A program made the position numbers and the translations under genes. A model generated the notes under the pieces. The model saw only the letters and a list, made by a program, of their open reading frames with translations, was not told the DNA's origin and made no database searches. Below are positions 2,467 through 37,115 of a stretch of 64,000 nucleotides of DNA, piece after piece. Positions within the stretch are counted from its first letter, which is position 1. Each line of letters begins with the position of its first letter. The stretch covers positions 7,275,001 to 7,339,000 of the forward strand of contig NZ_CP135275.1 of assembly GCF_032302195.1 (NCBI RefSeq), written 5' to 3'. The stretch comes from Paenibacillus sp. MMS20-IR301. GTDB lineage: Bacteria; Bacillota; Bacilli; Paenibacillales; Paenibacillaceae.

Positions 2467-3561
2467 TCAATAAGAGTTATGCATTGCGGCAGCTTCATAC
2501 AAGTACCTGGCATAACCCATGGGCCGGCGGTAGCTGTCTTTCCAGAGCCCGTCAAGTCCGGCTTTGCGGAAGCCGTAGCGCTGGTCGCGGCCGTTACATT
2601 CGATGAAAAAAAGGCGGCCTGTGTCCGTAATGCCGATGTCCAGCCCGATGTCGGCCAGCCCCGGGAGGCTCTGCTCCAGTTCCCGGGCAACTGCGAGGCT
2701 CAGGGTAAGAACGGACATGCGCAGCTGTGCTGCCGCCTCCCCTGGAAACGCCTGCTCCAGGGCGAAGGAGGAATTCAGTGCTTCACCGCCTCTGGCAATA
2801 TTCGAGACGAAGCCGCCCCGCGCAGCCAGCTTGGCGAACATGCCGGTCACCTGCCACTCTCCGCCCCAGCCGCGCTGCACACTAACGCGCAGGTCGAAAG
2901 GGCGTCCGCTGATCTCGGCCAGCGGTATTCGCTCCTGCACCAGATAAGGCACCGAGGTGAGCCTTGCGCGCAGTGCGCCGGGGAGAACCTCGCGGTCCAC
3001 AGGAATGGTGAACCAGCGTTTGGAGCCGGAAGGGGAATAGCTGAGCTTCCAGCGGCGCGTGCTGCTGCGCTTCAGCCGCATTACCCCGTTACCGACGCTT
3101 CCCCGGCAAGGCTTGAGGATGAGGTCCTGGCAGCTCTCCATCATCTCCCGCAGCCCGGAGAGGCCGGATTTTGTAGCGGGCAGATGCATACGCAGTTCCG
3201 GGCTCCGCTCCAGAAGACCCTGTATCTGGTCCTTGCCGTAGCGGTTGCAGATATTGTATACCTGAATTCCTTGCCGGAGCAGCCGCTCTGTCCCGCTGCT
3301 GCCCGGATCATAGATAGCCCGGTTATGAATAACCTCCGGTGTCGGGATGACCACCTTCTTGTATCCTTGAGTACCCTTTATATAGGCCCTGCTGTAGCCG
3401 GTCTGCGTATCGATGTCGGACAGCTTCAAATAGCAAGGGGTTAGTCCGTATGCGGCGGCGGCCTCTTCATAATTGGCCAGAGATTCCTGTCCGGTTTTTA
3501 ACCGGGGAACGCCCCCGTGCACAGCGGCATTTAGCAGTATTCCAACGAGCTTTTGCCCCAT
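2467..3561 (-). CDS. YheC/YheD family ATP-grasp protein (endospore coat-associated)
   Basis: The protein has 364 residues and starts at the ATG at 3561, behind GGGAGGAAC. It has an N-terminal domain of about 100 residues and an ATP-grasp core (LILKPCRGSVGNGV for the ATP lysine and glycine loop, VQERIPLAEISGRPFDLRV, and LGLDIGIT-like and FIECNGRDQRYGF segments for metal binding). This matches the YheC/YheD group known from Bacillus spore coats. ATP-grasp enzymes join carboxylates to amines or thiols, but the substrate of this family is not established. It probably heads a two-gene unit with psd. Confidence 0.85.
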   Translation of the reverse strand: MGQKLVGILLNAAVHGGVPRLKTGQESLANYEEAAAAYGLTPCYLKLSDIDTQTGYSRAYIKGTQGYKKVVIPTPEVIHNRAIYDPGSSGTERLLRQGIQVYNICNRYGKDQIQGLLERSPELRMHLPATKSGLSGLREMMESCQDLILKPCRGSVGNGVMRLKRSSTRRWKLSYSPSGSKRWFTIPVDREVLPGALRARLTSVPYLVQERIPLAEISGRPFDLRVSVQRGWGGEWQVTGMFAKLAARGGFVSNIARGGEALNSSFALEQAFPGEAAAQLRMSVLTLSLAVARELEQSLPGLADIGLDIGITDTGRLFFIECNGRDQRYGFRKAGLDGLWKDSYRRPMGYARYLYEAAAMHNSY

Positions 3562-3844
3562 GTTCGTTCCTCCCGTTATCTGTAAGTGGCTTCCCGCCTG
3601 CTTCCCGTCTCCTGTCATTGTATGTTTGTACGTGCTGCCGGGGGATGGACGGATGCGCGGCGGCAGATGCCCTTTTTTTAGAAAGATCAGAATTTATACA
3701 ATTGTGGTCCCGCAAAGCTGCTGAGTAATCCGCAGGGCTAAAGCCTGATTTTGTAGGGAGATCACCCGGGCAAATGGTGTCATCCGCCTATTCCACTGCA
3801 TATGATGCCTAGAAGAAACAACAGATGGAAGGAGGAGACTGCTT
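3562..3844. other. Intergenic region between divergent genes
   Basis: This 283-base gap holds the upstream regions of the minus-strand ATP-grasp gene and of the giant repeat gene. AAGGAGGAG at 3830-3838 is the ribosome binding site of the latter. A GCATATGATGC segment near 3799 resembles part of a sporulation-type -10 box, but no matching -35 is seen. No coding signal was recognised. Confidence 0.5.
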
Positions 3845-6800
3845 GTGAAGAGCTCCAGAAAAAATCAGCAGCGCAATGCCAATGCCAAGAAACGGCTTTA
3901 TTATGTGGATGATCCCAATAAGACAGAACTTAGCATGCTGAGAAGCAGTCCCAAAATACTTGAGAGTACAGAAGCCGCTGCAGCTCAGGCGGCAGCTGCG
4001 AAAGAAGAAACGATACAGGTTAGCGGTGTAGGCACGCTGGAAGCAGCAGAAGCGGCCCCGCAAACACAGCCGGAACAGGAAACTGTAGCAGAAGCGGCGG
4101 CCGAAGGGCCTTCCCTGCCGGAAGAAGAAGTGACTCTGATCCAGACAACAGTGCCCGCCCCGGTGCCCGCTCCTGTGGAAAAGGAACGACTTCAGCCGGT
4201 ATACACCGATGATATCTCCGATGCAGCTGTCACCGGTGCCAAAATTGCGCCGCGTACCATTGACGGCTCCAAGCTGAAGTTCGGCAGTATCGGCACGCCC
4301 TGGCTGCAGGATTATGCCGTGCAGAGCATTAATATTGCGGATAAGGCAGTGACTTCGGCGAAGATTGCCCCGGAGTCCGTCTCCGGCGAGCATCTGGCGG
4401 AGAGCAGCATCAGCGGCGGCAAGCTGCTGGATCATTCCATCGGCGGTGAAAAGCTTAAAAACGGCAGCATCGGACCGGAGAAGCTGGCTGACCGGATCAT
4501 CGGCGGAGGACAGATCGCAGACGGGGCAATATCCAGCCGTCATCTCAGCGAGTTCATCATTACCAGCGATCTGCTGGAGGAAGGCGCGGTTACAGGCGAG
4601 AAAATTCTCAGCAGCAGCATACTCAGCCGCCATCTCGGCAATGGCAGCGTGGACCGCTCCAAACTGGCGGATGAAGCGGTGTCCGGCGACAAAATCGCCA
4701 ATGGCGAAATCAGCAGCGCTAAGCTGAGCGATGGGGTGATCGAGAGCCGCCACCTGGGGGACGGTGTTATTACCGCCAAGCATCTGGCGCCGGGGGCAAT
4801 CGGCCGGGAACAGCTGGCTACGCGGCTGATCGGCAAGGAGCAGCTTCAGCCCGGTATTATTGACAGCGCCCATCTCGGGGACGGTGCAGTAGGCTCGCGG
4901 CAGCTTGGAGACAAGGCAGTACGCAGCCAGCACTTGAATCCGGAAAGCATCAATGCCGGCCATATTGCGGAGGGGGAGATTAACGGGCGGCATCTGGCCG
5001 ACCGCAGCATTTCCTTCGTGAAGCTGACTGAAGGGGCGGTAGGCACTGCGCAGCTGGTAGAACAGGCAGTAACCTCCTCCAAAATTGCTGACCAAAGCAT
5101 TCTGTCCCATAAGCTGGCCGATGAGGCAGTGACTACACGGCATATTGCCAAATCTGCTATCCGCGGGCCTCAGCTTGCGATGCAGGCAGTCACTTCGGCC
5201 CATTTACAGCGTGAGTCTGTTGATCATACCCATCTGGCCGAAGCCTCAGTTGGTTCTGCACAGCTTCAGGAGCAGGCTGTACTCACTGCTCATCTGGCTG
5301 CAGGTGCCGTGACAGAAAACCAGCTGGCCTATGAGGCGGTTACCGGCGAGCATCTCAGCCCGCACAGTGTCACTTCTGTTAAACTGGCGGACGGAAGTGT
5401 TATTTCCGCCAAGCTGGCAGCGGGAGCAGTTGGCGGAAATGCGCTTGCCCGCGAAGCGGTAAGCGGTGAGCATATCGCTATCTGTGCCGTAGAAGAGAAG
5501 CATCTCTCGGACGGAAGCATCAGCGGGCGTGTACTCCAGGAAGCGGCAGTAGATGCAGAGCATCTGGCTCCGGGAGCCATAGAGCGCCGTCATCTGGGTG
5601 AGAACAGTGTGACGGCCTCTGCCCTGCAGGCCGGCTCGGTATCTGCGGATAAACTGGCGACTGGCGCGGTCAAGGAGATTCATCTGGCTGCCGGCGCAGT
5701 CCAGCCGCATCATCTGGCCGATCATGCCGTCACTTCATTGAAATTATCGCCGGAGAGTGTCTCAACGGATAAGCTGGGAGATCTGGCGGTTACCTCTGTC
5801 AAGCTGGCGGACGGCAGTGTGGAGAGTGTGAAGCTGGCTGCGCTTGCCGTGCAGACGGAGCATGTCTCTGCCGGGGCTATTACTGCCCAGGCTATAGCGG
5901 ATACGGCGGTGCAGGGCAGACATCTCGCGCCGGGCAGTGTCGGCGGAGCCCATATCCGGCCGATGTCAATCGGCAACGGGCATATCATCCCGAGCTCCGT
6001 CTCCTCCATTCAAATCCAGGATGGAAGCATCGGTGCCGCCAAGCTGGCGGATGGTGCAGTTGCCTCGCGCCATCTGTCTGCCGGAAGCATCGCAGGGTCT
6101 CATCTGGCCGATGGTGCAGTGTTAAGCCGTCATATTGCAGACGGTGAGATTACACTGGCCCATCTGGCTGAAGAGGTACGAAGCAGTGACCTGCTCCCGG
6201 ACGGCAGCATCGGAGCCGATAAGCTGGCTGAAGGAGCGGTGAACGGCGGCCATCTGGCCCCGGCAAGCATCGAAGGCATTCATCTGACGCCGGAGGCGGT
6301 AACCGGGCTTCATATCGGCAGCGGAGAAATTACGCTGGCCCATCTGGCTGACGAAACGCGCAGTGCAGAGCTGCTTCCGGACGGCAGCATCGGCGGACAG
6401 AAGCTGGCAGCACAATCCGTGGGCCCGGATCATCTGGTCCCCGGAAGTGTATCAGGCAGCCACCTGGCTGCGGACAGTGTAGACAGCCGCCACATCCGTG
6501 CCGGCAGCCTCTCGCTGCAGCATTTTGCGAAGGGTGAATGGACAGCTGAGCTGCTGGCGGACGGCAGTGTCAGCGGCGACATGCTGGCCGCCGGAGCAGT
6601 GAATTCTTTGCATCTGCAGCCGGAGAGCATCTACGGTGAGCATCTCGTCGGCGGCAGCGTGCAGGAAAGACATCTGCGTGCGGGGATCATCAAGCTGGCG
6701 CACCTGGCGGAAGAGACCCGCAGCGCGGAGCTGCTGCCGGACGGCAGTATCGGAGGCAGCAAGCTGGCGGAGGGTGCCGTAGAGCAGCGGCATCTGCGCA

Positions 6801-8611
6801 AGGGCAGTATCACGCTTGCCCATCTGGCGGAAGAGACCCGCAGTGCAGAGCTGCTGCCGGACGCCAGCATTAGCGGCAGCAAGCTGGCAGAGGGGGCTGT
6901 GAATGCCTTCCATCTGGCACCGGGCAGCGTATATGGGGGACATCTGGCACAGGGTGCGGTCGGCAGCCGTCATGTCCGGCCCGGCAGTATTACGCTTGAG
7001 CATCTGGCGCTGGAGACGCTGACTGCGGAGCTGTTGCCCGATGGCAGCATTCACGGCAGTAAGCTGGCCGGAGTATCCGTAAGCACGGAGCATCTGCAGC
7101 CGGAGAGCATTCACGGCAGCCATCTTGCCGACGGGATTATTGAGCAGCGCCATCTGCGCAGCGGCAGCATCACGCTCGCGCATCTGGCACAAGAAACCCG
7201 CAGTGCAGAGCTGCTGCCGGACGGCAGCATTGCCGGAAGCAAGCTGGCTGAAGGTGCAGTAGACGCTGTTCATCTGGCACCAGAGAGTGTATATGGCGGA
7301 CATCTGTCAGAAGGCGCAGTAGAGGGCCGTCATATCGCTCCCGGCAGTATTGTGCTTGAGCATCTGGCACCGGGAACGCTGACCTCGGAACAGCTGCCGG
7401 ACGGCAGCATCGGCAGCGGCAAGCTGGCTGCCGGAGCGGTGAGTGCCGAGCACCTGCAGCCGGAGAGCATTCACGGCAGCCATCTTGCGGATGAGGCTGT
7501 CGGCGAGCGTCATCTGTGTGCAGGCAGCATCAAGCAGGGCCACCTGGCGGATGGAGTAATTGAGGAGCGTCATCTGCGTGCCGGCGTTATTAAGCAGGAG
7601 CATCTGGCGGACGGAGTGATTGAGGAGCGCCATCTGCGTGCCGGCAGCATTAAGCTTGCGCATCTGGCGGAAGAGGCCCGCAGCACAGAGCTTCCGGATG
7701 GCAGTATCAGCAGCAGCAAGCTGGCAGAAGGTGCAGTAGATGCCTTCCATCTGGCGCCGGAGAGTGTCTATGGGGGACATCTGGCCCCAAGCGCGGTGGA
7801 GGGCCGTCATGTCCGGCCCGGCAGTATCACGCTTGCGCATCTGGCGGAAGAGGCCCGCAGTACAGAGCTTCCGGACGGCAGTATCAGCAGCAGCCAGCTG
7901 GCAGAAGAAGCGGTGGGTGCGGAGCATCTGCAGCCGGCAAGTATTCACGGGAGCCATCTGGCCGATGGAGTAATTGAGGAGCGCCATCTGCGTGCCGGCA
8001 GCATTAAGCTGGAACATCTGGCGGAGGAGGCCCGCAGCAGCGGAGCGCTGCCGGACGGCAGTATAACTTCAGCGCAAATAGCCGCAGGAAGCATTGGAAC
8101 AGAGCAGCTTGCAGCCGGAGCTGTAGGAGCGGCGGAGCTTCAGGATGAAGCGGTGGATGGTTCCAAAATCACCTCATTCGCTGTGCAGTCCCGCCACCTG
8201 GAAGAAGAAAGCGTGCAGGGCTATCACATAGCATCCGGTGCGGTTACCGGCGAGCATATTGCCCAGGGCTCGCTGACTGCAGAGCACCTGTCCTTCAGTC
8301 CGGTACAGAGCGTGGGGAACCGCGAGGTGCTGCAGCAGTTCGGCATGACGGCGTTTATGTTCACCGGTACCGTGGAGAGTGTAGATGTAACGGTAGCCTT
8401 TGACGAAAGCTTCGGCCATACCGGGTATGTGCTCGTTGCCATGACCAACCAGCCGTTCTTCCATGCTTCATTAAAAAGCAGAGCAGGCAGTGAAGCAGTC
8501 ATCCAGGTAAACCGGCTGCGTGATACACCGCATTTCTACGGGGTGTTGTCATGGATTGCCATCGGTTCACCGCTCGTGAAGCCTTCTACGGAACGCCGCG
8601 CTTTTGATTAA
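3845..8611 (+). CDS. Giant decapeptide-repeat protein with C-terminal WIAIG domain
   Basis: The product has 1588 residues, with a GTG start behind AAGGAGGAG. There is no signal peptide or membrane segment. Residues 1-30 are basic; about 30-120 are Ala/Glu/Pro-rich low complexity. From about residue 125 to 1480 the protein is an almost unbroken ten-residue repeat, consensus x-G-x-H/K-L-A-x-G-A/S-V/I, roughly 135 copies. The last 110 residues are non-repetitive, with FMFTGTVESVDVTVAF and VLSWIAIGSP. From memory this matches the 'WIAG-tail' domain of Paenibacillus repeat proteins and also resembles the end of H-type lectin folds. The regular repeat suggests a long solenoid or fibre. With glycosyltransferases downstream, a spore-surface scaffold that becomes glycosylated is likely, but this is inference. 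Confidence 0.88.
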   Translation: MKSSRKNQQRNANAKKRLYYVDDPNKTELSMLRSSPKILESTEAAAAQAAAAKEETIQVSGVGTLEAAEAAPQTQPEQETVAEAAAEGPSLPEEEVTLIQTTVPAPVPAPVEKERLQPVYTDDISDAAVTGAKIAPRTIDGSKLKFGSIGTPWLQDYAVQSINIADKAVTSAKIAPESVSGEHLAESSISGGKLLDHSIGGEKLKNGSIGPEKLADRIIGGGQIADGAISSRHLSEFIITSDLLEEGAVTGEKILSSSILSRHLGNGSVDRSKLADEAVSGDKIANGEISSAKLSDGVIESRHLGDGVITAKHLAPGAIGREQLATRLIGKEQLQPGIIDSAHLGDGAVGSRQLGDKAVRSQHLNPESINAGHIAEGEINGRHLADRSISFVKLTEGAVGTAQLVEQAVTSSKIADQSILSHKLADEAVTTRHIAKSAIRGPQLAMQAVTSAHLQRESVDHTHLAEASVGSAQLQEQAVLTAHLAAGAVTENQLAYEAVTGEHLSPHSVTSVKLADGSVISAKLAAGAVGGNALAREAVSGEHIAICAVEEKHLSDGSISGRVLQEAAVDAEHLAPGAIERRHLGENSVTASALQAGSVSADKLATGAVKEIHLAAGAVQPHHLADHAVTSLKLSPESVSTDKLGDLAVTSVKLADGSVESVKLAALAVQTEHVSAGAITAQAIADTAVQGRHLAPGSVGGAHIRPMSIGNGHIIPSSVSSIQIQDGSIGAAKLADGAVASRHLSAGSIAGSHLADGAVLSRHIADGEITLAHLAEEVRSSDLLPDGSIGADKLAEGAVNGGHLAPASIEGIHLTPEAVTGLHIGSGEITLAHLADETRSAELLPDGSIGGQKLAAQSVGPDHLVPGSVSGSHLAADSVDSRHIRAGSLSLQHFAKGEWTAELLADGSVSGDMLAAGAVNSLHLQPESIYGEHLVGGSVQERHLRAGIIKLAHLAEETRSAELLPDGSIGGSKLAEGAVEQRHLRKGSITLAHLAEETRSAELLPDASISGSKLAEGAVNAFHLAPGSVYGGHLAQGAVGSRHVRPGSITLEHLALETLTAELLPDGSIHGSKLAGVSVSTEHLQPESIHGSHLADGIIEQRHLRSGSITLAHLAQETRSAELLPDGSIAGSKLAEGAVDAVHLAPESVYGGHLSEGAVEGRHIAPGSIVLEHLAPGTLTSEQLPDGSIGSGKLAAGAVSAEHLQPESIHGSHLADEAVGERHLCAGSIKQGHLADGVIEERHLRAGVIKQEHLADGVIEERHLRAGSIKLAHLAEEARSTELPDGSISSSKLAEGAVDAFHLAPESVYGGHLAPSAVEGRHVRPGSITLAHLAEEARSTELPDGSISSSQLAEEAVGAEHLQPASIHGSHLADGVIEERHLRAGSIKLEHLAEEARSSGALPDGSITSAQIAAGSIGTEQLAAGAVGAAELQDEAVDGSKITSFAVQSRHLEEESVQGYHIASGAVTGEHIAQGSLTAEHLSFSPVQSVGNREVLQQFGMTAFMFTGTVESVDVTVAFDESFGHTGYVLVAMTNQPFFHASLKSRAGSEAVIQVNRLRDTPHFYGVLSWIAIGSPLVKPSTERRAFD
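4210..8300 (+). repeat. 30-bp tandem coding repeat of the giant protein
   Basis: The DNA repeats with a 30-bp period in exact codon phase from about 4210. From about 6120 a longer module appears, built from lines such as TLAHLAEE-TRSAELLPDG-SIGGSKLAEG-AV. It recurs at about 6151, 6331, 6691, 6811, 7171, 7651 and 7831 with high nucleotide identity, showing recent internal amplification. Near 7690 and 7870 one Leu codon is missing (RSTELPDGS instead of RSAELLPDGS). Confidence 0.9.
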
Positions 8612-8863: not shown

Positions 8864-9697
8864 ATGAAGCATAAACGAACATCAGCCCGCCGCACGGGGC
8901 GGCGGGGATCCCGGACGATAATCCGGCCGGTGCGGTCTGCTGCGCCGCTGCCTGCGGTGAATCATCCGGAGCCGTATGTGTCGGTCATCATTCCTGCTAT
9001 GAATGAGGAACGGACGATATTAGGAGTGATTGCCGGAGCCAGGGGTGTACATCCCCGCTGTGAGGTTATTGTGGTTGTAAACGGTTCTGCTGACCGGACG
9101 GCAGACATTGCGCGCTCAGCGGGAGCGGATGTAATAGTGTATGAACAGCCGCTCGGACATGATGTCGGGCGAAGTGTCGGTGCATCAGCGGCCAAAGGAG
9201 AGATCCTGCTGTTTACGGATGGAGATCTGGTCATTCCCGCACCGCAGCTGCGCCCGTTTGTAAAGGCGGTCGGCGGCGGTGCGGATATTGCCTTGAATGA
9301 TTATTCCGGTCCGGTGCGCAGCAGTATTCCGCACCCGGTAGTGTTATCCAAGCATGTCCTGAATCTCCTGCTCGGACGGTCCGATCTGAAGGGCTGTTCA
9401 CTGACGGCTGTTCCTCATGCGATCAGCCGCAGGGCACTGGATATGCTGGGTACTCCCCTGCTGTCCCGGCCCCCGCTGGCCCATGCCCGCGCTGTACTGG
9501 ACGGATTGCAGGTGACCGCGGTGCGCGGTGTGCCCGTGGGCAGGATGAATGCAGTGCGCCGGAAGTCAGGCGGCAGTGACCCCTTGAAGGAGGTCATCCT
9601 CCTGGACCATCTGGAGGCGGTGGCCTTGCTGCTGGAGCGCCGGGGCCAGCGTGCCGGCTTCAGTGACGGGACCCGCCGAAGGGAGATGGTCAAGTGA
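8864..9697 (+). CDS. Family 2 glycosyltransferase with basic N-terminal tail
   Basis: The protein has 277 residues. Residues 1-30 are strongly basic (KHKRTSARRTGRRGSR). A GT-A domain starts near residue 38 (YVSVIIPAMNEERT), with the nucleotide-sugar/metal motif D-G-D at 119-121. It looks soluble; no transmembrane segment is seen. It is paralogous to the next gene: both share GHDVGRS-G-A, LLF-DGD, LGRSDL and SMTAVPHA/SLTAVPHA. The stop overlaps the start of the next gene (GTGATG), so the two are translationally coupled. The donor sugar is unknown. The position behind the giant repeat protein suggests that protein as the acceptor. Confidence 0.88.
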   Translation: MKHKRTSARRTGRRGSRTIIRPVRSAAPLPAVNHPEPYVSVIIPAMNEERTILGVIAGARGVHPRCEVIVVVNGSADRTADIARSAGADVIVYEQPLGHDVGRSVGASAAKGEILLFTDGDLVIPAPQLRPFVKAVGGGADIALNDYSGPVRSSIPHPVVLSKHVLNLLLGRSDLKGCSLTAVPHAISRRALDMLGTPLLSRPPLAHARAVLDGLQVTAVRGVPVGRMNAVRRKSGGSDPLKEVILLDHLEAVALLLERRGQRAGFSDGTRRREMVK

Positions 9698-10671
9698 TGG
9701 CAAAGATATACCGGACAGTGCCGGCCGCACCGGCCCAAGACAGAAGATCTGGCGGCAAAGGCCCGGCCGTCCGGAAACAGGCTGCCCGACGGCCGGTTGG
9801 CAGCCGGGCGGCCGGGAGCCGCAGCAAGCGGGCAGCGGCAGGCCGCCCGCTGCGCTCCCGGACCCGGCAGGCTGCCGCATCCGGCCGGGCAGTGTTGGCC
9901 TTTCCGGCAAGGCGCGGCGCCTTGTCGGTAATTATCTCGGCAAGGAACGAGGAACGGACCTTGCCGAAGCTGCTGGAGCAGGTGACGCTGCTCCAGCCGC
10001 TGGAAATTATCGTAGTGCTGAACGGCTGCGACGACCGCAGCTTCCAGCGCACCCGGCTGTGCCGCCAGGCGACCGTTATTCATATTCCGGAGTCTGCCGG
10101 ACATGATGTAGGGCGGTCGATCGGCGCCAAGCTCAGCCGGGGGGATATCCTGCTTTTTCTGGATGGCGATATGAGTATTCCCGCCCGGCAGCTTGCAGGG
10201 TTTGTGACGGCAGTGGATGGCGGAGTCGATGTGGCGCTTAATAACCTTGACCCGCTTCTGCCTTCCTTCGGCCTGAGTGATGCTGTTACCCGCTGTAAGC
10301 TGTATTTGAACAGCGCCCTCGGCCGGAGTGATCTCGGAGCCAGCTCCATGACGGCTGTACCTCACGCTTTGTCCCGCAGGGCACTGCAGGTCATCGGTTA
10401 CCGGGAGCTGATGGTTCCGCCCAAAGCGCAGGCTATTTCAATCCTGAGACAGCTGCGGGTGGAGAAGGCGGGTGCAGTCGATGTGATTAAGCATAACCGG
10501 CTGCGCCAGGGCAACACGGGGACCGGAAATGCTATGGAGCAGCTGATTGCCGGTGACCATGCGGAAGCTCTCGTCCAGGTTCTGGAACAGCACCGGACCG
10601 GGGTGCAGCTCTCCGAGGCCCATCTGCTGGAGCAGCGGCGTCAGCTGGCAGCCTGGAGGAATGCTTTATGA
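9694..10671 (+). CDS. Family 2 glycosyltransferase with long Arg-rich N-terminal tail
   Basis: The protein has 325 residues from the GTG at 9694; the ATG at 9697 is an equal alternative, but GGGAG at 9681-9685 is better spaced for the GTG. Residues 1-75 are rich in Arg, Ala and Pro (for example RSKRAAAGRPLRSRTRQAA), followed by a GT-A domain from about residue 77 (LSVIISARNEERT) with D-G-D at 157-159. It is a clear paralogue of the preceding gene with a longer tail. The end overlaps the next glycosyltransferase by 4 bases (ATGA). The tail looks like an anchor or electrostatic targeting segment, which is inference. Confidence 0.88.
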   Translation: MMAKIYRTVPAAPAQDRRSGGKGPAVRKQAARRPVGSRAAGSRSKRAAAGRPLRSRTRQAAASGRAVLAFPARRGALSVIISARNEERTLPKLLEQVTLLQPLEIIVVLNGCDDRSFQRTRLCRQATVIHIPESAGHDVGRSIGAKLSRGDILLFLDGDMSIPARQLAGFVTAVDGGVDVALNNLDPLLPSFGLSDAVTRCKLYLNSALGRSDLGASSMTAVPHALSRRALQVIGYRELMVPPKAQAISILRQLRVEKAGAVDVIKHNRLRQGNTGTGNAMEQLIAGDHAEALVQVLEQHRTGVQLSEAHLLEQRRQLAAWRNAL

Positions 10672-11405
10672 CGCTGACCAGTATTATCATTCCAACATAT
10701 AACAGGCTTGGGCTGCTGCGCTCCTGTATTGAATCCATCCGGGAGCATACGGGCTCGCCCTATGAAATTATTGTGGTTGATAATGGTTCAAGTGACGGTA
10801 CGGATGCCTACTGCCGCGCCAGCAAGCTGACCTTCATCTCGCTTCCGGAGAACCGCGGCTTTCCGCTGGCCTGTAATATGGGACTGACGCTTGCGGCAGG
10901 CGATGAGCTGCTGCTCCTGAACAACGATGTTATTGTGTCGAAGGGATGGCTGGATAACCTGAAGCGCGCCTTGTACAGCGCCCCGGATATCGGAATTGTC
11001 GGGCCGGTAACCAATTATGCCAGCGGGCGGCAGCAGGTGCAGACCGGGTATGCGGATATTGCGGGTTATCATGCGGAAGCCGGCCGGGCCAATGTCCCGG
11101 ATGCGGCGAAATGGTCAGAGACCCGGAGGCTTGTAGGGCTGTGCTTTTTATTCAAAAGACAACTGCTGGATGCTATCGGCCTGCTGGATGAACGGTACTC
11201 GCCGGGACATTATGAGGATGATGATTACTGCTACCGCGCGCGGCTTCAGGGCTACCGGCTGCTGATTGCCGGAGATTGCCTGGTGCACCATGAAGGCAGC
11301 GCCAGCTTTAAAGAGGTTTATCCCGCTTCACTACAGGAACTGGTAGAGCGTAACCGCAGGGTTTTTATCGAGAAATGGCATGTGGACCCTGCGATATTCA
11401 TCTGA
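10668..11405 (+). CDS. Family 2 glycosyltransferase, rhamnosyltransferase-like
   Basis: The protein has 245 residues. The GT-A start is SIIIPTYNRLGLL, then IIVVDNGSSDGTD, NRGFPLACNMG, the LLLLNNDVIV motif near residue 85 and the acceptor-side HYEDDDYCYRARLQGY. This pattern is typical of GT2 enzymes of O-antigen, capsule and spore polysaccharide loci, often annotated as rhamnosyltransferases. It is the third gene of a coupled GT trio (4-base overlap with the previous gene). The actual sugar is not determined. Confidence 0.88.
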   Translation: MTLTSIIIPTYNRLGLLRSCIESIREHTGSPYEIIVVDNGSSDGTDAYCRASKLTFISLPENRGFPLACNMGLTLAAGDELLLLNNDVIVSKGWLDNLKRALYSAPDIGIVGPVTNYASGRQQVQTGYADIAGYHAEAGRANVPDAAKWSETRRLVGLCFLFKRQLLDAIGLLDERYSPGHYEDDDYCYRARLQGYRLLIAGDCLVHHEGSASFKEVYPASLQELVERNRRVFIEKWHVDPAIFI

Positions 11406-11452: not shown

Positions 11453-12184
11453 GTGAAAGGAGTCATACTCGCGGGCGGAACAGGAACAAGACTTTACCCG
11501 CTCACCCGGCTTATGAACAAACATTTGCTTCCGGTCGGTAAATATCCTATGGTGTGCTATGGTATTGAGCGGCTGCGCCGGGGGGGTATAACCGATATTC
11601 TCCTGGTCATCAGCAAACAGTCTGCTGGGCAATACACCGACTTTTTGGGCAGCGGGGCGGAATTCGGCGTATCCCTGACTTACAAAATCCAGGAAGCCGC
11701 AGGAGGCATCGCCGAAGCGCTTGAGCTGGCGAAAGGATTTATTTTGCCGGGGGAACGGTTTGTTGTGCTGCTTGGTGACAATCTGTTTATGGATGATCTG
11801 AAGCCTTATGTGGAGAGTTATCTGCAGCAGCCGGAAGGAACGGCGAAGGTGCTCCTGAAACCGGTCGATGATGCGCGGAGGTACGGGGTCCCGGTGTTTG
11901 ACAGCAGTGATTCCTCGCTCATAGCGTACATCGAAGAGAAGCCGGAGCATCCGAAGACGAAGTTCTGCGTTACCGGGATCTATATGTACGATGAGGCGGT
12001 GTTCGATATCATCCTCCGGATCTCGCCTTCCAAGCGGGGGGAGCTGGAAATTACCGATGTGAACAATATTTACGCCGCAGACCGGAAGCTCAGCTATGAT
12101 GTGCTTAAGGGCTGGTGGAGCGATGCGGGAACCTTTCAGTCCTTGCGTGAAGCCGGTGACAAGCTTAAAGATACGCTGCCCTGA
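11453..12184 (+). CDS. spsI: Sugar-1-phosphate nucleotidyltransferase, SpsI/RmlA-like
   Basis: The protein has 243 residues with a GTG start behind GGGAGGAAAG. It has the nucleotidyltransferase signature GGTGTRLYPLT at residues 8-18, LLGDNLF, YIEEKPEHP and a WSDAGTF end. It makes an NDP-sugar, probably dTDP-glucose, from the sugar phosphate and NTP. The length, shorter than RmlA of about 290 residues, matches Bacillus SpsI from the spore coat polysaccharide operon. It is the last gene of the giant-repeat/glycosyltransferase block and probably supplies activated sugar to it. No RmlB, C or D partner lies beside it. Confidence 0.82.
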   Translation: MKGVILAGGTGTRLYPLTRLMNKHLLPVGKYPMVCYGIERLRRGGITDILLVISKQSAGQYTDFLGSGAEFGVSLTYKIQEAAGGIAEALELAKGFILPGERFVVLLGDNLFMDDLKPYVESYLQQPEGTAKVLLKPVDDARRYGVPVFDSSDSSLIAYIEEKPEHPKTKFCVTGIYMYDEAVFDIILRISPSKRGELEITDVNNIYAADRKLSYDVLKGWWSDAGTFQSLREAGDKLKDTLP

Positions 12185-12838: not shown

Positions 12839-13559
12839 AGAATGCCCCCGTTTCTAAACGATAAGATACATAGTAAACCATAATGTTTGCCGGATAGATT
12901 CCGATCTGGTATTTACATTTTAACCCAGCATAGTCCCGGGGCCAGCTTTTTGTCAATCTCCCTCAGCGGTTCTCTTTGTTGAGAGAAAGCTGCCCCCCCT
13001 GAGGATGCTATTGCCGCTCTGCCTAGTGTGTAATAAGCCGTACATCTGCCGCTCGCCGCCGCTATATGAAGGAAATAGTTGGATTTTCTACACTTAAATA
13101 TCTGGATTTCCCTTCACTTCCGGAAATAAGTGGATAAATGACATCTATATTCTCCTCTATGCCTGATAATGCTCAATTATGGTCTGAATAAGTGTTGTTT
13201 TTCCAACTATTTTCATAAGGAACCTATAATACCAATGAAATAAGTGACGTTTTTCCAATTATTTCCGGTTAGGTCCTAGAATGTAACCACCATAACGCCA
13301 CATGCCGCAACTCCACGCTGCCAACGCCAGTCCCATCCCCGCCAACCATAACTCCAAGTTACTAACGCCCGCCCGAGCTCTACGCACGTCTACATCCTAT
13401 GCTGACAACCCCATCCACCACTACCGCCGCCGCAACACCCCCCCCCCCCGCCCTCATCCGTCCACTCCCCTCATTCCCCTCCGCAACTTGCGGAGTTTCT
13501 CCGGCACCGTCACGGCTGATGCCGCATATGCTGTAGCAGGGCGTTTGAGCAAAGGAGAC
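12839..13559. other. Intergenic region: repeats and a C-rich tract
   Basis: This 720-base region has no supported gene. It holds a cluster of short related repeats (13071-13266), a strongly C-rich and G-poor stretch (about 13280-13500) with a run of twelve C at 13438-13449, and a small hairpin CTCCGC-AACTT-GCGGAG followed by TTT (13479-13498). An open frame from 13302 continues into the following gene, but its composition simply reflects the C-rich tract. Confidence 0.6.
13071..13266. repeat. Cluster of short related intergenic repeats
   Basis: A motif of about 27 bases, AATAAGTGNNGTTTTTCC followed by AAYTATTTYC, occurs at 13187-13214 and 13239-13266. It occurs inverted at 13071-13097, and a degenerate inverted copy lies near 13132-13156. 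Confidence 0.65.
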
Positions 13560-13853
13560 ATGAAGGTGCAGAGTAAAATAACGAAAGTCCTGCAGCACAT
13601 GGCCCATACGCACGAACAGATGGCACGGATTCTCGACGCCGAACGCCACGTAGCCGTCCGTATGTCGCAAATAGTCCACGATCTGCCGGATGCGGACCCT
13701 GATTTTGGCGGATTCAGTGGGCTGGTGGAAAGCTCAGGTCAGGTTAACAAGAACATTATTGCTTACCTCAACGCACTTGCCGATCTTGAAGAAGCGATGG
13801 CTGAGGGAGTAGGCAGAGTGATCAAGGAATTAAACGGCCAGGAAGAAGAGTAA
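13560..13853 (+). CDS. Small helical protein A of a four-gene cassette
   Basis: The protein has 97 residues and no recognised family. The ATG at 13560 follows AAAGGAG; the frame is open upstream but low in coding character there. It is predicted to be all helical: VLQHMAHTHEQMARILDAE, then a short Asp/Pro/Gly turn (DLPDADPDFGGFSG), then a second long helix (VNKNIIAYLNALADLEEAM). The two-helix pattern with a central A-x-I-L-D/E-A motif recurs in the next two genes, so the three look paralogous. The start of the next gene is 28 bases downstream with its own strong ribosome site. A spore role is guessed from the neighbours only. Confidence 0.75.
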   Translation: MKVQSKITKVLQHMAHTHEQMARILDAERHVAVRMSQIVHDLPDADPDFGGFSGLVESSGQVNKNIIAYLNALADLEEAMAEGVGRVIKELNGQEEE

Positions 13854-13880
13854 GGCGTAACCTGAGCAAGGAGGCGGAAG

Positions 13881-14219
13881 ATGAGCAGAGAAAAGGCTTA
13901 TCTGCAAATGCTGGAGTCGACCGCTGTAATCCAGTGGAACATCGCGATGATCCTGGAGGCCAAGGCGGTGGAAGCGGAGAAAGTGAAGCAGTGGACCCAT
14001 CATCATGTCCACGCCAGAGCGTTCGACTCCCATGAGGACCAGCTGAAGGAATCAATCTCCATCCACGAGGTGATTGTGGAGATGGTTGAAGGGCTGACGA
14101 AGCTGGAGAACGGGCTTTACAGCAATCTGAAGGCGGTGCTGGGCAGCGGTGAGGATGAAGGCGGCGGCTTCGGCGGAGACGGTGAGGACGGCTTCAGCTT
14201 CGGAGACGACAGCAAATGA
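13881..14219 (+). CDS. Small helical protein B with Gly/Asp-rich acidic tail
   Basis: The protein has 112 residues; family not recognised. The ATG follows AAGGAGGCGG. The first helix carries IQWNIAMILEAKAVEAEKV, matching the A-x-I-L-E/D-A pattern of the previous gene. A His-rich turn follows (WTHHHVHARAF), then a second helix IHEVIVEMVEGLTKLENGL. The last 25 residues are Gly/Asp/Phe-rich (EDEGGGFGGDGEDGFSFGDD), a flexible acidic tail. This acidic tail and the extremely basic protein two genes downstream could pair electrostatically (inference). The stop overlaps the next start (ATGA). Confidence 0.75.
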   Translation: MSREKAYLQMLESTAVIQWNIAMILEAKAVEAEKVKQWTHHHVHARAFDSHEDQLKESISIHEVIVEMVEGLTKLENGLYSNLKAVLGSGEDEGGGFGGDGEDGFSFGDDSK

Positions 14220-14506
14220 GCGGCGGGCTTCTCTCCGAACATGCCGTCAAGCTGGAGATGATCCGCTCGATCGCCCGCAGCCAGGCTGCGCTCGCGGCCA
14301 TCCTGGAGAGCATTGCCGAAGTTACGGGGCAATCGGAGCTGACAGCCCGCAAGCTAAGCGATAATGTCAGGATTCTCAGTGAGTACCAGAGTACGATGTG
14401 CCGGATGATCTCCGGCATTTCGCTGCATGAGCCCAAACAGGGTGTTCCTGCTGCACCTTGGCTGAATAAGGCCTGCTCGGAGGGCACCGCTGCAAGAAGG
14501 ACATGA
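14216..14506 (+). CDS. Small helical protein C of the cassette
   Basis: The protein has 96 residues; family not recognised. It overlaps the previous gene by 4 bases. It is helical: VKLEMIRSIARSQAALAAIL, with the same I-x-x-x-x-x-x-L-A-A-I-L-E-S motif as its two upstream neighbours, then ARKLSDNVRILSEYQSTM and a short C-terminal tail. The end overlaps a possible upstream ATG of the basic protein. Conserved order and overlap suggest the four products act together. Confidence 0.72.
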   Translation: MSGGLLSEHAVKLEMIRSIARSQAALAAILESIAEVTGQSELTARKLSDNVRILSEYQSTMCRMISGISLHEPKQGVPAAPWLNKACSEGTAARRT

Positions 14507-14526
14507 AGTACAGGAGGAGTAGAAGG

Positions 14527-14928
14527 ATGAAGAGAAAGAGACTTGGCAAGCTGCATCCGGGCAGCAAGCGGCGCAGACGCACACTGCTGCTGTCACGGAA
14601 AACGCGCGTGCGCAAAACCCTTGGACGCAAAACGCGCAGAGGACTGATCCGTAAGGCAGGCAAGAGACCGCTGCTGCTGCGCAAAAAAAGAAGACTCCGC
14701 CGCCGGCTTAGCCGCCGGGTACAGGTGGCTAAGCCGGTACAGGTGATTCCGGCAGTTGAAGCCCCGCCGGCGCCGCAGGTTGTCCCGCTCCCCCCGGATC
14801 TGGGCGTCCCTCCGGAGCTCCCGCCGGGAGACGCCTTTCAGCAGGGCTACACCGAAGCATACAACGTGGGGTTCGACGCAGGTTTCGCCAAGGGCTTCGA
14901 GGACGGGCATAAGCTGGAGCTGGGCTGA
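14527..14928 (+). CDS. Arg/Lys-rich basic protein with Gly-Tyr/Phe motif tail
   Basis: The protein has 133 residues. AGGAGG at 14512-14517, nine bases upstream, selects the ATG at 14527; the ATG at 14503 would add eight basic residues. Residues 1-70 are about half Arg/Lys (KLHPGSKRRRRTLLLSRK, LLRKKRRLRRRLSRRV) and resemble protamine or ribosomal extensions. A Pro-rich linker follows (about 75-105). The C-terminus carries a four-residue periodic motif, GYTEAYNVGFDAGFAKGFED. The same kind of motif opens both CgeB-like proteins at 24.3 and 25.4 kb. Nucleic-acid or polyanion binding in the spore is possible. No known family was recognised. Confidence 0.75.
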   Translation: MKRKRLGKLHPGSKRRRRTLLLSRKTRVRKTLGRKTRRGLIRKAGKRPLLLRKKRRLRRRLSRRVQVAKPVQVIPAVEAPPAPQVVPLPPDLGVPPELPPGDAFQQGYTEAYNVGFDAGFAKGFEDGHKLELG

Positions 14929-24253: not shown

Positions 24254-25351
24254 GTGAAGGCCGTGAAAGCAAAAAATAGAAACTTGCGTCCGCGGGACTA
24301 CCGCGACGGTTACCAGGAGGGATATCATCTGGGCTTATGCGAGGCCGTGAAGACTCTGAATTCTCCTGAGGTGGGAGCATGCCGTCCGTTCAAGCTGATG
24401 TATGTCCCGCAAGGGTTTCAGGCGATTGACACTGGAGTGACGGAAGCGCTGCGGCTGCTCGTAAGCGAGCTGCTTATCTGTTCTCCGGAGACCATGCTGG
24501 AGGTAGCGGCCCGCGAGTCTCCGGGAGCGGTGCTGGTGATGAACGGGCTGCATGTGTTTCCCGAGAACCATCTGGAACAGATTACGGAGATAAGAAAGCT
24601 GGGCATTCCGGCAGCGATCTGGTTTGTTGATGATCCCTATTTTACCGAAGATACCTCAGAGATCTGTAAGCATTATGATTATGTATTTACCCACGAGCTG
24701 GGCTGTGTGGAGTTTTACCGCTCACTCGGTGTGGCGTCCGTGCATTATCTCCCGCTGTGTGTTAACCCGCAGATGTTCTACCCGCGCCGCACCGGTCCGC
24801 AGCATCAATTCGATATTGTGTTCATCGGCAACGCCTTCCGTAACCGGACAGAGCTGTTTGATGAGCTGGCCCCTTTTCTCCGCGGGAAAAAAGTGCTGAT
24901 CGCCGGCGGCTTCTGGGAGCGCCTGAGTACCTTCGACGAGTTGTCTCCCTTCATTAGAAGCGGCTTCATCCCTCCGGAGGAAACGGCTAATTATTACAGC
25001 GGCGCCAAGCTGGTCATTAATATCCACCGCCCCTGGGAGGGCGGGCAGGATAACCGGAACACCTTCCAGCTGCCGTCCCGTTCGATTAATCCGCGGACCT
25101 ACGAGATCAGCGCCTGCGGAACGATGCAGCTGACTGATATCCGCGAGGATCTGGATCTTCATTACCGTCCGGGCCGTGATCTGGAGACCTTTGCTTCTGC
25201 GGATGAGCTGAAACGCAAAATTGACTATTTCCTGAAGCATGAGAAGGAGCGCCGCCAGTATGCGCTGCGGGGGCTGCAGACGACACTGCGCCATCACACC
25301 TTTACCGCACGGTTGCCCCATCTGCTGAATGTTCTTGCTGCACAACGCTAA
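24254..25351 (+). CDS. CgeB-like spore glycosyltransferase family protein 1
   Basis: The protein has 365 residues. GTG at 24254 or 24263 can start it; both lie near GGGGCAGGG. A basic lead (KAKNRNLRPRDY) runs into a GYQEGYHLG motif, then a Rossmann-like GT-B body with AAIWFVDDPYF, HYDYVFTHELGCVEFYRSLG and VHYLPLCVNPQMF. The second half has INPRTYEISACGTMQLTD, typical of the CgeB/spore-maturation glycosyltransferase group. In B. subtilis cgeB is a late mother-cell gene affecting spore-surface properties. A close paralogue follows 32 bases downstream. Confidence 0.83.
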   Translation: MKAVKAKNRNLRPRDYRDGYQEGYHLGLCEAVKTLNSPEVGACRPFKLMYVPQGFQAIDTGVTEALRLLVSELLICSPETMLEVAARESPGAVLVMNGLHVFPENHLEQITEIRKLGIPAAIWFVDDPYFTEDTSEICKHYDYVFTHELGCVEFYRSLGVASVHYLPLCVNPQMFYPRRTGPQHQFDIVFIGNAFRNRTELFDELAPFLRGKKVLIAGGFWERLSTFDELSPFIRSGFIPPEETANYYSGAKLVINIHRPWEGGQDNRNTFQLPSRSINPRTYEISACGTMQLTDIREDLDLHYRPGRDLETFASADELKRKIDYFLKHEKERRQYALRGLQTTLRHHTFTARLPHLLNVLAAQR

Positions 25352-25383
25352 AGTCCACTATGGGATAGAAGGAGCGAATACTC

Positions 25384-26517
25384 ATGAACAATGAATTTAT
25401 CATGCCTGCCCCGCCGCTGCCGCGGACCCCTGCGGAAGAACAAAAGCTGAGCGGACGCCTGACCGGCTTCAAGGTGGGATACGATGAGGGATACCTGCGC
25501 GGACGTCTGGCCATACTCGATGGCCGGCCGGAGGAGCCGGTTGCGGTCCGCAATATCCATGTCATGTATGTAGCCTCAGGCAAGGGGTATCCGTATTCCC
25601 CGCTTGATGATGCCGTGCTCTTCGCGCTGCAGCGACTGACCGCCCAGGTCACCATTACCGATGTCCGCCAGAATCTGGTGGAGCTGGCTTCGGCCCAGCG
25701 TCCTGATCTCGTGCTGGTGCTCGATGGTCTTGATCTGCCGCTGGATCAGGTGGCTGTTCTGCGCGGCAGAGGGATCAAGACAGCGATTTGGCTGACCGAT
25801 GACCCGTACTATACCGATTTCACTATGAAAATCGTTGCCCACTATGACTATGTCTTCACACTGGAGCGCAATTGTGTAGAGTTCTACAAGGGCCTCGGCT
25901 GCACAGAGGTGCATTACCTGCCGTTTGCTGCCCACCGGGAGCATTACCGCCCGACGACCGGACGTTCACCAGTCAGCCGTGATGTCAGCTTCATCGGCTC
26001 TGCGTACTGGAACCGGATTAATTTCTTCCGCGATATTATGCCGGAGCTGATGAGTTACAACACAGTGATTAACGGAATCTGGTGGGACCGCCTGCCTGAA
26101 GCGCCTCTCTACGGCGAGCGGATCGAGATCGGCAAGTGGATGTCCCCGCAGGAAACGGCAGTCACCTACAGCGGCTCGAAAATTGTCATCAACCTGCACC
26201 GCTCTCATATCGATGAGGTGGCGAATAACAATACGCTGTACATTCCGGCGGTATCCCCGAATCCGCGTACCTTCGAGATTGCCGCCAGCGGTACGCTGCA
26301 GCTCAGCGATGCCCGGGATGATATGGGCTCATTCTACAAGGTTGGCGAAGAGATCGATACCTTCTCAAGCCCGCAGGAGATGATGGATAAAATCCGTTAT
26401 TACCTGACGCATGAGGAAGAACGCCGGAATATGGCTTTGCGCGCTTTCGAACGGACGCTGAAGGACCACACCTACACCATACGCCTGAACCAGCTGCTTA
26501 GTGTCATCTACGGCTAA
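25384..26517 (+). CDS. CgeB-like spore glycosyltransferase family protein 2
   Basis: The protein has 377 residues; the ATG follows AAGGAGCG. It is a paralogue of the preceding gene along its whole length: GYDEGYLRGR near residue 35, TAIWLTDDPYYTDF, HYDYVFTLERNCVEFYKGLG, VHYLPFAAHREHY, NPRTFEIAASGTLQLSD. The pair arose by tandem duplication and has diverged clearly. Both probably add sugars to coat or crust components late in sporulation. The donor is unknown. Confidence 0.83.
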   Translation: MNNEFIMPAPPLPRTPAEEQKLSGRLTGFKVGYDEGYLRGRLAILDGRPEEPVAVRNIHVMYVASGKGYPYSPLDDAVLFALQRLTAQVTITDVRQNLVELASAQRPDLVLVLDGLDLPLDQVAVLRGRGIKTAIWLTDDPYYTDFTMKIVAHYDYVFTLERNCVEFYKGLGCTEVHYLPFAAHREHYRPTTGRSPVSRDVSFIGSAYWNRINFFRDIMPELMSYNTVINGIWWDRLPEAPLYGERIEIGKWMSPQETAVTYSGSKIVINLHRSHIDEVANNNTLYIPAVSPNPRTFEIAASGTLQLSDARDDMGSFYKVGEEIDTFSSPQEMMDKIRYYLTHEEERRNMALRAFERTLKDHTYTIRLNQLLSVIYG

Positions 26518-26930
26518 GACAAACAGCAGGGTCCCGGCTGCAGCCGGAGCAGGCAAAAATGTGCGTATCACCGGGGACAGGTGTCGTGCCGGCATCTGTG
26601 CCCCCTCAATATACTGGTTGAAGTACCGGGTTAGGATGTTTGCCTGCCTCCGGTGCGGAGCGTACACCGCCTTCTGACGTCTGCCCGCGGGCTGGCTAAC
26701 GGACCAACGGCTCTACAGTCCGTAAGGGAGAAAAGGGGACCCGCCGGAGATGCACAGCCGGACTTAAGCGGATGCTCCGTAGTAAGGCTTATGGTGAAGA
26801 AGTACCGTGTAGTGAAGCTTCGTACAACTTAAGCGGATGCTCAAGAAACGCCATGCTGCTAATGTTTCGTAAAACTTTCAGGGAGGTGAATGGCTGCTCC
26901 ACAGCCCTCGCGGAGGAGCGCCGAGACACC
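26518..26930 (+). other. Leader region with a 16-base direct repeat
   Basis: The stretch between the CgeB-like pair and the next glycosyltransferase contains ACTTAAGCGGATGCTC twice (26762-26777 and 26827-26842). Part of it is an open frame leading into the next gene, but it lacks similarity to the family. No promoter was recognised. Confidence 0.5.
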
Positions 26931-28418
26931 ATGGCCGACAAAGCTACAATCGTCCTCTTTTCCCATGTTTCCAATACACGCAGTATAACAGGTGCGGAGA
27001 AGCTGCTGTTGTTCTTCAGCCGGGAGCTGTCTCCTTACTTTAATTGTATTCTCGTAGCCCCGCAGGACGGAAAGCTTACACGCCTGGCTCGGAGCTACGG
27101 GATCAATGTCCAGCTGCTGCCGATCCCGCTTGTCTATGGTATGTATACTCCGTATGCAGGCCTTCCGGCTGATATCCGTAAGCTTCAGGAGGCCCGGGAA
27201 TACCAGGAGCTGGTCACCTGGCTTGCGGGTCTGCGCCCGTCGTTTATTATATCCAGTACCTGTGTGCATGCTCTGCCGCCGATGGCGGCGAAATCGCTGG
27301 GAATTCCGGTGGTCTGGAAAATCTCCGAGACCATTACGGACAACGAGTTCACCCCGCTCAGCGTAGAGCTGATTCACAGCAACAGTGATGAGATTCTGGC
27401 TATTTCGCAGACGGCTGCGGCCTGTTTCCCGGAGGATATCCGCGAAGGCAAGGTGACTCAGCTGCCTCCGTCATGGAATGATGCGGAGATGATGTTTGAA
27501 GCGTGGAGCAAGCTGCGGGGGGAGCGGCGGAATGAACTGCAGATCGCTCCGGAAGAACCGCTGGTCGGTTATGTCTCTTCCTTCATTAATAAGGAGAAAG
27601 GTCTGGAGCATTTCGTCAAAATGGCGGTGCTGGTGAATGAGCAGCATCCGGCTGCGCGCTACATGGTCGTCGGTTCCCCCGGAGATAAAAGCTACTACGA
27701 ACGCTGTGTCCGCAAGGTGAAGCTGGAGGGTCTGACTTCCCGGTTCAAATTTGTCGGATACGAGGAATGTCTGCCGGCAGCTTACTGCGCCATGGATCTG
27801 CTGGTTGTACCCAGCCTGATCCGTGAAGGCTTCGGAATGACCGCACTGGAGGGCTACGCCTTCGGCAAGCCTGTAGTTGCCTATGATTCCGGCGGCTTAC
27901 GGGAGATTCTGAACGCCGCAGGCTGCGGTGAGCTGCTTGTGCCTGCGGCGGACATCGGCACGCTTGCCGCGCAGGTGAACATGCTGCTGGCCGCTCCGGT
28001 CATGGCTGCGGCCATCGGCAGCCGGGCGCGCGAGCGCATCGAGGCCGTTTACGGCCCGGCGGCGTACCGCGCCCGCCTGCACGGCTTAGCGGAGAGGTGG
28101 TATCTCCGCTACTGCCTCCTGCCGCCGCAGACTGCCGGCGGCGATGATCCCCCGCCCGCAGCTCCGCCGGCGGGCGCGGGGACTGCCGCGGCTGCTGAGG
28201 CGCCGCGGGCTGGAACCGCGCGCCGCACGGCACGGCTGCGGCGTGCGAAGCTCCGGCGCGGCAAGCTCCGCCGCGCCAAATCCCGGGCGCGCGCAGCGAA
28301 GCGCCCGGGGCGTAAAAAGCGCGCGGCACGCTCCGCGCGCAGGAAGGCCGGCGGCGGGAAGCACCGCCGCGCGGGCCGTGCACGCCGCCGGGGCCACCGG
28401 CGGCGGAAGGCGGCCTGA
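26931..28418 (+). CDS. GT4-type glycosyltransferase with protamine-like C-terminal tail
   Basis: The protein has 495 residues from the ATG at 26931; GGAGG lies 14 bases upstream, and a start at an upstream in-frame codon is possible. The GT-B body includes LFSHVSNTRSITGAEKLLL (N-domain glycine loop region), VGYVSSFINKEKGLEHFV, FKFVGYEE and the donor-binding VVPSLIREGFGMTALEGYAFGKPVV, with the E-x7-E pattern. Residues about 398-495 form an extension absent from the family: first Pro/Ala/Gly-rich, then almost pure Arg/Lys/Ala (for example RAKLRRGKLRRAKSRARAAK). The tail DNA is extremely GC-rich. A polybasic tail may hold the enzyme on a polyanionic spore layer or on DNA. Confidence 0.85.
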   Translation: MADKATIVLFSHVSNTRSITGAEKLLLFFSRELSPYFNCILVAPQDGKLTRLARSYGINVQLLPIPLVYGMYTPYAGLPADIRKLQEAREYQELVTWLAGLRPSFIISSTCVHALPPMAAKSLGIPVVWKISETITDNEFTPLSVELIHSNSDEILAISQTAAACFPEDIREGKVTQLPPSWNDAEMMFEAWSKLRGERRNELQIAPEEPLVGYVSSFINKEKGLEHFVKMAVLVNEQHPAARYMVVGSPGDKSYYERCVRKVKLEGLTSRFKFVGYEECLPAAYCAMDLLVVPSLIREGFGMTALEGYAFGKPVVAYDSGGLREILNAAGCGELLVPAADIGTLAAQVNMLLAAPVMAAAIGSRARERIEAVYGPAAYRARLHGLAERWYLRYCLLPPQTAGGDDPPPAAPPAGAGTAAAAEAPRAGTARRTARLRRAKLRRGKLRRAKSRARAAKRPGRKKRAARSARRKAGGGKHRRAGRARRRGHRRRKAA

Positions 28419-36926: not shown

Positions 36927-37115
36927 GCTCACCCCTCCTGACATTAACCTTACGGAGAAACACTTCTGCTGTTTATAAGATACGCCAGAGGCTCCTTACG
37001 CGTGACGGTAATAGGGGCGATGTACCAAATCCTTTCAGCATAGCCCGGCTGGCCGGAGGTCATGCTAAAGCTTGTTACGCTGCACTTCACAAATCTGTAG
37101 ATGGGGGATGAATGG

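Follow-up and report, generated by a model that had tools for sequence, protein, structure and literature searches.

Four small genes, designated A, B, C and D, stand in a row in the window (the whole stretch of 64,000 nucleotides that was analysed), and A, B and C, perhaps together with D, may form a module of the Paenibacillus spore surface, made by the mother cell late in sporulation, that assembles or anchors a glycosylated layer, a reading to which we give slightly better than even weight. A role of the cassette in the outer layer of the spore is considered quite likely, a structural or anchoring role for A to C falls a little short of an even chance, and a role of D as a recruitment scaffold is possible though rather doubtful. 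The computational support consists of promoter boxes, the co-inheritance of A, B and C, and a cluster of glycosyltransferase and sugar-nucleotide genes near sporulation genes. Against it stand the glycosyltransferase genes, most of which have no such box close by, and the 21 of 98 genomes from which A and B are missing.

All four open reading frames that the earlier note had described were found on the forward strand. Gene A (13,566 to 13,853) encodes 95 aa, a predicted helical hairpin with an acidic C-terminus; gene B (13,881 to 14,219) encodes 112 aa, a predicted helical hairpin followed by a disordered, acidic and Gly-rich tail; gene C (14,216 to 14,506) encodes 96 aa, with an ARILxSxADV block and a GxPxxPWL sequence near the C-terminus; and gene D (14,527 to 14,928) encodes 133 aa, with a polybasic stretch and a C-terminal QGYTEAYNVGFDAGFAKGFEDGH motif. 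The start of A is more likely the GTG at 13,566 (95 aa), 8 nt after AAGGAG, than the previously chosen 13,560 (97 aa), because of this ribosome-binding site and because relatives of A are mostly 95 aa in length among the 120 of 237 matches listed. Likewise, D probably starts at the ATG at 14,527, which lies behind the ribosome-binding site AGGAGG, and not at 14,503 (141 aa), and therefore the overlap of C and D is probably not real. The genes had been said to overlap or nearly touch, and this stands for B and C, where C starts within an ATGA overlap, and for A and B, which are 27 nt apart, but probably not for the overlap of C and D.

The three short helical motifs MARILDAE, IAMILEAK and LAAILESI are present, each inside a conserved block of its own family. 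AlphaFold2 returned hairpins for A (helices 2–41 and 51–96, mean pLDDT of 76.5 and pTM of 0.47) and B (helices 3–42 and 51–88, with the tail from residue 90 below a pLDDT of 50, mean pLDDT of 76.2 and pTM of 0.45), in agreement with the two-helix architecture proposed earlier, and both proteins are predicted with moderate confidence to be long helical hairpins. The suggestion of three paralogues holds only in part. In profile comparisons with hhalign, the A–C score of 39.4 was reached by 0 of 100 heptad-preserving column permutations, so that A and C are supported as paralogues, whereas the A–B score was reached by 7 of 100 such permutations and the B–C score by 1 of 100, with a reversed control of 20.4 vs 25.3. 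A single paralogous family of A, B and C is thus not supported for the pair A–B and is borderline for B–C.

Though A to D gave no match above the Pfam and NCBIfam cut-offs, in line with the earlier note, which saw no resemblance to a known family, B is not wholly undescribed, since the precomputed label PF26595 was found on all 116 listed homologues of B; no Pfam label was found on the homologues of A among the matches listed. Domain matches of A to DUF3755 (0.007) and Methyltransf_19 (0.016) fell under the curated cut-offs and were rejected, as was a below-cut-off match of C to ASL_C (0.11). Every match in the PDB sequence searches was insignificant, and Foldseek returned no match for B at E-values up to 10 and none better than 2.3 for A, so that none was significant.

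Many homologues of A are named 'nucleoside-diphosphate sugar epimerase' in the source records and many homologues of B 'restriction endonuclease subunit S'; both names look like propagated errors. That these names given by the sources are nevertheless correct, with A an epimerase and B a restriction specificity subunit, has a practically negligible probability, as no such Pfam or NCBIfam match was obtained. In particular, no Pfam match to a Rossmann-fold epimerase domain was found in A, which is predicted to be a helical hairpin of 95 aa, or to a target-recognition domain in B and six homologues, and the sole PDB hint for B was an HsdS chain at E = 1.4.

The claim of a coupled, conserved and little-described set holds for A, B and C. 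Within the family to which the window belongs, 197 genomes were searched for B and C, which were detected in 156 and 153 of them, and 98 for A, which was detected in 77. A and B were both present in 77 and both absent in 21 of the 98 genomes, with no discordant case, while B and C agreed in 192 of the 197 genomes (152 with both and 40 with neither), the exceptions being four genomes with B only (G024, G069, G106 and G161) and one with C only (G039, E = 0.002); the genomes are related to one another, and these counts are not counts of independent events. Of the 98 genomes, 87 have the D tail motif, comprising all 77 with A and B (in some weakly) and 10 of the 21 without them, the other 11 of the 21 having none of the three. 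Independent distribution of the genes, which had been named as a ground for abandoning the idea of a cassette, is therefore not what was observed for A, B and C, but D is partly independent by these last counts.

In samples of the class, A and B gave no convincing match in other families. The profile of B, searched against 299 class genomes, matched 25 genomes of the family and elsewhere gave only four short and weak matches (E-values of 0.01–0.09), and that of A, searched against 250, matched 21, all of them in the family and none outside it. One close homologue of B is labelled Bacillus sp. FJAT-27264. A mobile island is not favoured, because the genes are single-copy in most genomes of the family, with second matches found only in G159 for B and in G099 for C.

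A total of 41 annotated stretches from 38 genomes were compared, of which the 40 fetched ones were chosen and not random, the second 20 including genomes picked for D or A to C standing apart. In the first 20 loci fetched, A, B, C and D occur in this order in all, with C of L040 found only on a second pass and the start of D unclear in L042 and L051. Across the 41 stretches, D comes after C in 29 of the 33 loci that contain A, and the remaining four (L074, L076, L080 and L085) have A, B and C downstream of REP, a large candidate surface protein, without D. In these four loci, of which L085 belongs to G150 of the same genus, A, B and C stand apart from D and from most glycosyltransferases. Eight further stretches have D without A to C, directly after a GT2 gene. 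D is separable from A to C, because it adjoins a glycosyltransferase gene where A to C are missing, and since A to C lie away from D in four loci, the linkage does not require contact between A or B and D. Five of the 21 genomes lacking A and B, picked for having D, were inspected: REP, glycosyltransferases and D remain in four of them (G004, G015, G073 and G078), and glycosyltransferases and D remain in G027, where REP lies outside the view.

The REP gene (3,845 to 8,611, forward strand) encodes 1588 aa with a periodicity of about 10 residues and a C-terminal stretch ending in WIAIG; it matched Pfam only below cut-off (DUF6420) and has no significant PDB relative. It lies upstream of A, B and C in the fetched loci with REP in view. 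The usual order in the locus is REP, GT2 genes, an RmlA-like gene, a GT-D-like gene (PF22882), another GT2 gene and A-B-C-D, followed after D by two PF13524+PF12996 glycosyltransferases, a GT4 glycosyltransferase, a UDP-GlcNAc 2-epimerase, and Polysacc_synt_2, RmlD-like and epimerase-like genes. The window contains a comparable gene set, divided by other genes at 15–24 kb. On its forward strand it harbors three GT2 glycosyltransferases (8,864 to 11,405, at 8,864–9,697, 9,694–10,671 and 10,668–11,405), the first two with N-termini that are basic by eye; an RmlA-like sugar nucleotidyltransferase (11,453 to 12,184; PF00483, with RmlA models below cut-off); two PF13524+PF12996 glycosyltransferases (24,254 to 26,517), each with a GYxxG motif near the N-terminus; a GT4 glycosyltransferase with a polybasic C-terminal tail (26,772 to 28,418); and sugar-nucleotide genes (28,674 to 32,575) for a UDP-GlcNAc 2-epimerase (WecB model over cut-off) and for Polysacc_synt_2, RmlD-like and epimerase-like proteins. 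No NCBIfam model names the PF13524+PF12996 glycosyltransferases, which we call 'CgeB-like' here. The window has no GT2 gene bearing the motif before A and no GT-D-like gene; the latter was found in 0 of 9 genomes of the same genus, and G150, also of this genus, does have one, in L085. Beyond REP lies a gene for a YheC/D-like ATP-grasp protein (2,467 to 3,618, reverse strand; PF14398, E = 1.1e-57), and a YhcN/YlaJ sporulation lipoprotein gene occurs at 37,101, about 22 kb beyond D.

A putative sigma-K-type promoter precedes A on the forward strand, with a −35 element GCACC (13,504 to 13,508), which fits KCACM, and a −10 element GCATATGCTG (13,524 to 13,533), which matches GCATANNNTR; a further sigma-K-type −10, GCATATGATG, lies upstream of REP (3,798 to 3,807, forward strand). 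These elements were scored against the Bacillus subtilis sigma-K consensus, given as KCACM (−35) and GCATANNNTA (−10) in the part of PMC3416734 used here. The box GGCATATGYTGTA is found upstream of A in most loci, at a varying distance from the start codon. After dereplication of 82 A upstream regions to 45, of which 8 to 10 are from the same genus, GCATANNNTR was present in 43 of 45 (300 dinucleotide shuffles gave 1.23 on average) and in 33 of 35 outside the genus, while the strict form CATANNNTA was present in 15 of 45, against 1.77 in shuffles. In 29 of the 43 boxes before A, the −10 ends in G, where the consensus has A. At the position where the sigma-E −10, KCATANANTN in the part of PMC3416734 used here, has A, all 43 carry G.

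Anchored only on the box, with a −10 pattern that partly fixes its own inner bases, the match to KCACM was best among 56 offsets at −20, with a mean of 3.23 of 5 bases and 1.19–2.28 at the others. At this offset, the mean was 4.50 of 5 in the same genus (10 regions, at least 4 of 5 bases in 8), and 2.85 in other genera (33 regions, with 0.94–2.36 at other offsets and only 3 regions reaching 4 or more of the 5 bases), where the second base is C in 1 of 33; a clear −35 is therefore seen within the genus and a weak one outside it. In the same genome, dpaA, a sigma-K-controlled gene chosen as a control, carries TCACC and GCATAAGATG with this same offset, and its −10 ends in G as does that of the window; it is a single control gene for the GCATANNNTG form.

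With gene starts picked by rule, the box was found within 150 nt of the start in 31 of 33 A genes and 8 of 11 REP genes over the 41 stretches, compared with 3 of 33 for B, 0 of 33 for C, 1 of 37 for D, 5 of 48 for PF13524 glycosyltransferases, 2 of 112 for GT2, and 0 or 1 for each of the other families. Thus, glycosyltransferase and sugar-nucleotide genes are present around the cassette, and the consistent box occurs only before A and REP. A search for sigma-70-type promoters gave one match, on the reverse strand, and one terminator-like match lies inside gene A. An attempt to define a regulon from the exact box GCATATGYTRTA was abandoned, with five genome sites, one of them that of A itself, against three for the backwards pattern, and no evident spore gene by eye among the open reading frames after the other four. 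As side observations, the variable bases of the −10 in relatives are mostly TGC or TGT, giving a CATATG palindrome that is possibly a second binding site, and the stretch from the box to A (window 13,524–13,565) is nearly identical in the same-genus loci L003–L021 (L011, for example, has one extra base), a conservation that seems beyond the needs of a plain leader.

A late mother-cell role at the spore surface is likely in view of the promoter and the setting, and so is the link to sporulation that had been suggested earlier. The locus might otherwise serve a vegetative surface polysaccharide or an S-layer glycan, given that its enzymes are generic surface-glycan enzymes, that most of their genes lack the box and that the −35 is weak outside the genus; the −10 box, with its control in the same genome, and the YheC/D-like and YhcN/YlaJ genes in the window argue against this, and we regard it as improbable.

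The charges proposed for D and B were confirmed: the first 70 residues of D contain 51% Lys and Arg, and the acidic Gly-rich tail of B carries a net negative charge in all 51 aligned members. Moreover, the net charge of D ranges from +15 to +38 in 20 of 20 proteins, and the C-terminus of A has at least three Asp or Glu among its last eight residues in 31 of 31, so that opposite charges, with the end of A and the tail of B against D, are supported across the families. D consists of a polybasic stretch and a GYxxGFxxGF tail, a glycine-zipper-like sequence (GYxxGFxxG), and these two tags were counted in proteins whose starts were picked by rule as the first M, V or L after a stop, some of which may include untranslated residues. 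The GYxxG motif was found in 37 of 37 D proteins, 44 of 50 PF13524 glycosyltransferases, 14 of 25 GT-D, 33 of 122 GT2 (pooling several genes per locus here and below) and 0 of 29 GT4, compared with 2 of 71 control open reading frames, which were drawn from 21 of the 41 stretches and some of which may be spurious. A polybasic stretch, defined as 30 residues with at least 40% Lys and Arg, was found in 36 of 37 D, 23 of 25 GT-D, 19 of 29 GT4, 48 of 122 GT2 and 9 of 50 PF13524 proteins, compared with 1 of 71 controls. Both tags occur together in 36 of 37 D, 14 of 25 GT-D, 13 of 122 GT2 and 8 of 50 PF13524 proteins, and in 0 of 29 GT4 and 0 of 71 controls; thus the tags are shared, mostly singly. 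The motif was also scored in 5 of 33 B proteins, owing to the Gly-rich tail of B, and the polybasic stretch in 5 of 33 C proteins. Below-cut-off matches of the D tail to Yae1_N (E = 0.0054) and FliH models (0.025 and worse) were set aside; they may reflect only the GxxxG pattern, because both families carry repeated GxxxG.

Proteins of the CotG type share a chromosomal organisation, taken here as adjoining cotH. That D is a CotG-like coat protein, with A to C as unrelated neighbours, would accord with its charge, CotG being strongly positive and located in the outermost layer according to the part of PMC9765600 used here. Yet the lag-identity test for tandem repeats was significant (p < 0.01) in only 1 of 20 D proteins, which is not that of the window (251 of 1000 shuffles reached its value), the C-terminal motif of D is common to glycosyltransferases, and the frequent position of D after C speaks against mere neighbourhood. 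The CotH matches lie at 2.59 and 2.62 Mb and the cassette at 7.29 Mb of the 7.69 Mb genome, so that both genes are at least 3 Mb away; the two homologues occupy 2,587,626–2,588,546 and 2,618,587–2,619,537 of contig C1 of this genome (G000). D is therefore not CotG-like by the criteria tested, as far as these are set out in that part of PMC9765600, despite the shared charge, and we hold this alternative to have little chance of being right.

In the module that we favour, the sigma-K-type promoter before A and the similar −10 box before REP would provide late mother-cell expression, and A, B and C would be small structural or assembly proteins that contribute to the assembly or anchoring of REP, itself a candidate for a glycosylated fibre of the surface. 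D would represent, as a separate protein, the polybasic and glycine-zipper-like tags borne by many glycosyltransferases of the cluster, and may bring these enzymes to the surface under assembly or keep them there, perhaps through electrostatic contact with the acidic ends of A and B. Alternatively, A, B and C might act in the mother-cell cytoplasm, as chaperones or regulators of either the glycosyltransferases or REP, and not end up in the spore; their linkage to these genes, the small predicted hairpins of A and B, and the position of A to C beside REP in the four split loci would suit this, but the disordered, acidic and Gly-rich tail of B is judged untypical of chaperones, and we consider this account rather unlikely. 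More speculative, and less probable still, is a tag code, in which many of the cluster glycosyltransferases bear one or both of two tags, the polybasic stretch and an aromatic glycine-zipper-like motif (GYxxGYxxG). D, as the bare double tag, would gather these enzymes on the forespore and be linked through A and B, together with C, to the REP layer as it grows. If true, the tag code would amount to a self-assembling spore-surface glycosylation machine, of which we know of no described counterpart.

No literature on the cassette, and likewise no mention of PF26595, was found among open-licence PMC articles, and to our knowledge far less work has been devoted to the spore surfaces of Paenibacillus than to those of Bacillus. 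The analysis provides a defined set of four genes with a candidate fibre protein and a candidate promoter, casts doubt on two names that many database records bear, and suggests that glycosyltransferases could be brought together on the spore in a modular fashion. Among known families and systems, PF26595 covers all listed homologues of B and none of those of A. The CotG-like coat proteins resemble D in being small and strongly basic and in their sporulation setting, whereas 19 of 20 D proteins have no tandem repeats, cotH is not nearby and D has the conserved GYxxGFxxGF C-terminus. The crust proteins CotV and CotX are two related small spore-surface proteins (PMC7439481, in part), as A and C would be, although A and C have no Pfam match to such a family. 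Closest in content are the crust glycosylation genes of B. subtilis (sps, yfn and cgeAB-cgeCDE), which also combine spore-surface glycosyltransferases with sugar-nucleotide enzymes; CgeB is counted among the crust glycosyltransferases (PMC7439481 and PMC10502511, in part), and the sps genes have sigma-K promoters (PMC7439481, in part), as here a sigma-K-type promoter is proposed before A. A point of difference is that A and B have no convincing match in the class samples, and the cassette is most likely a variant of a known theme, the assembly and glycosylation of the spore surface.
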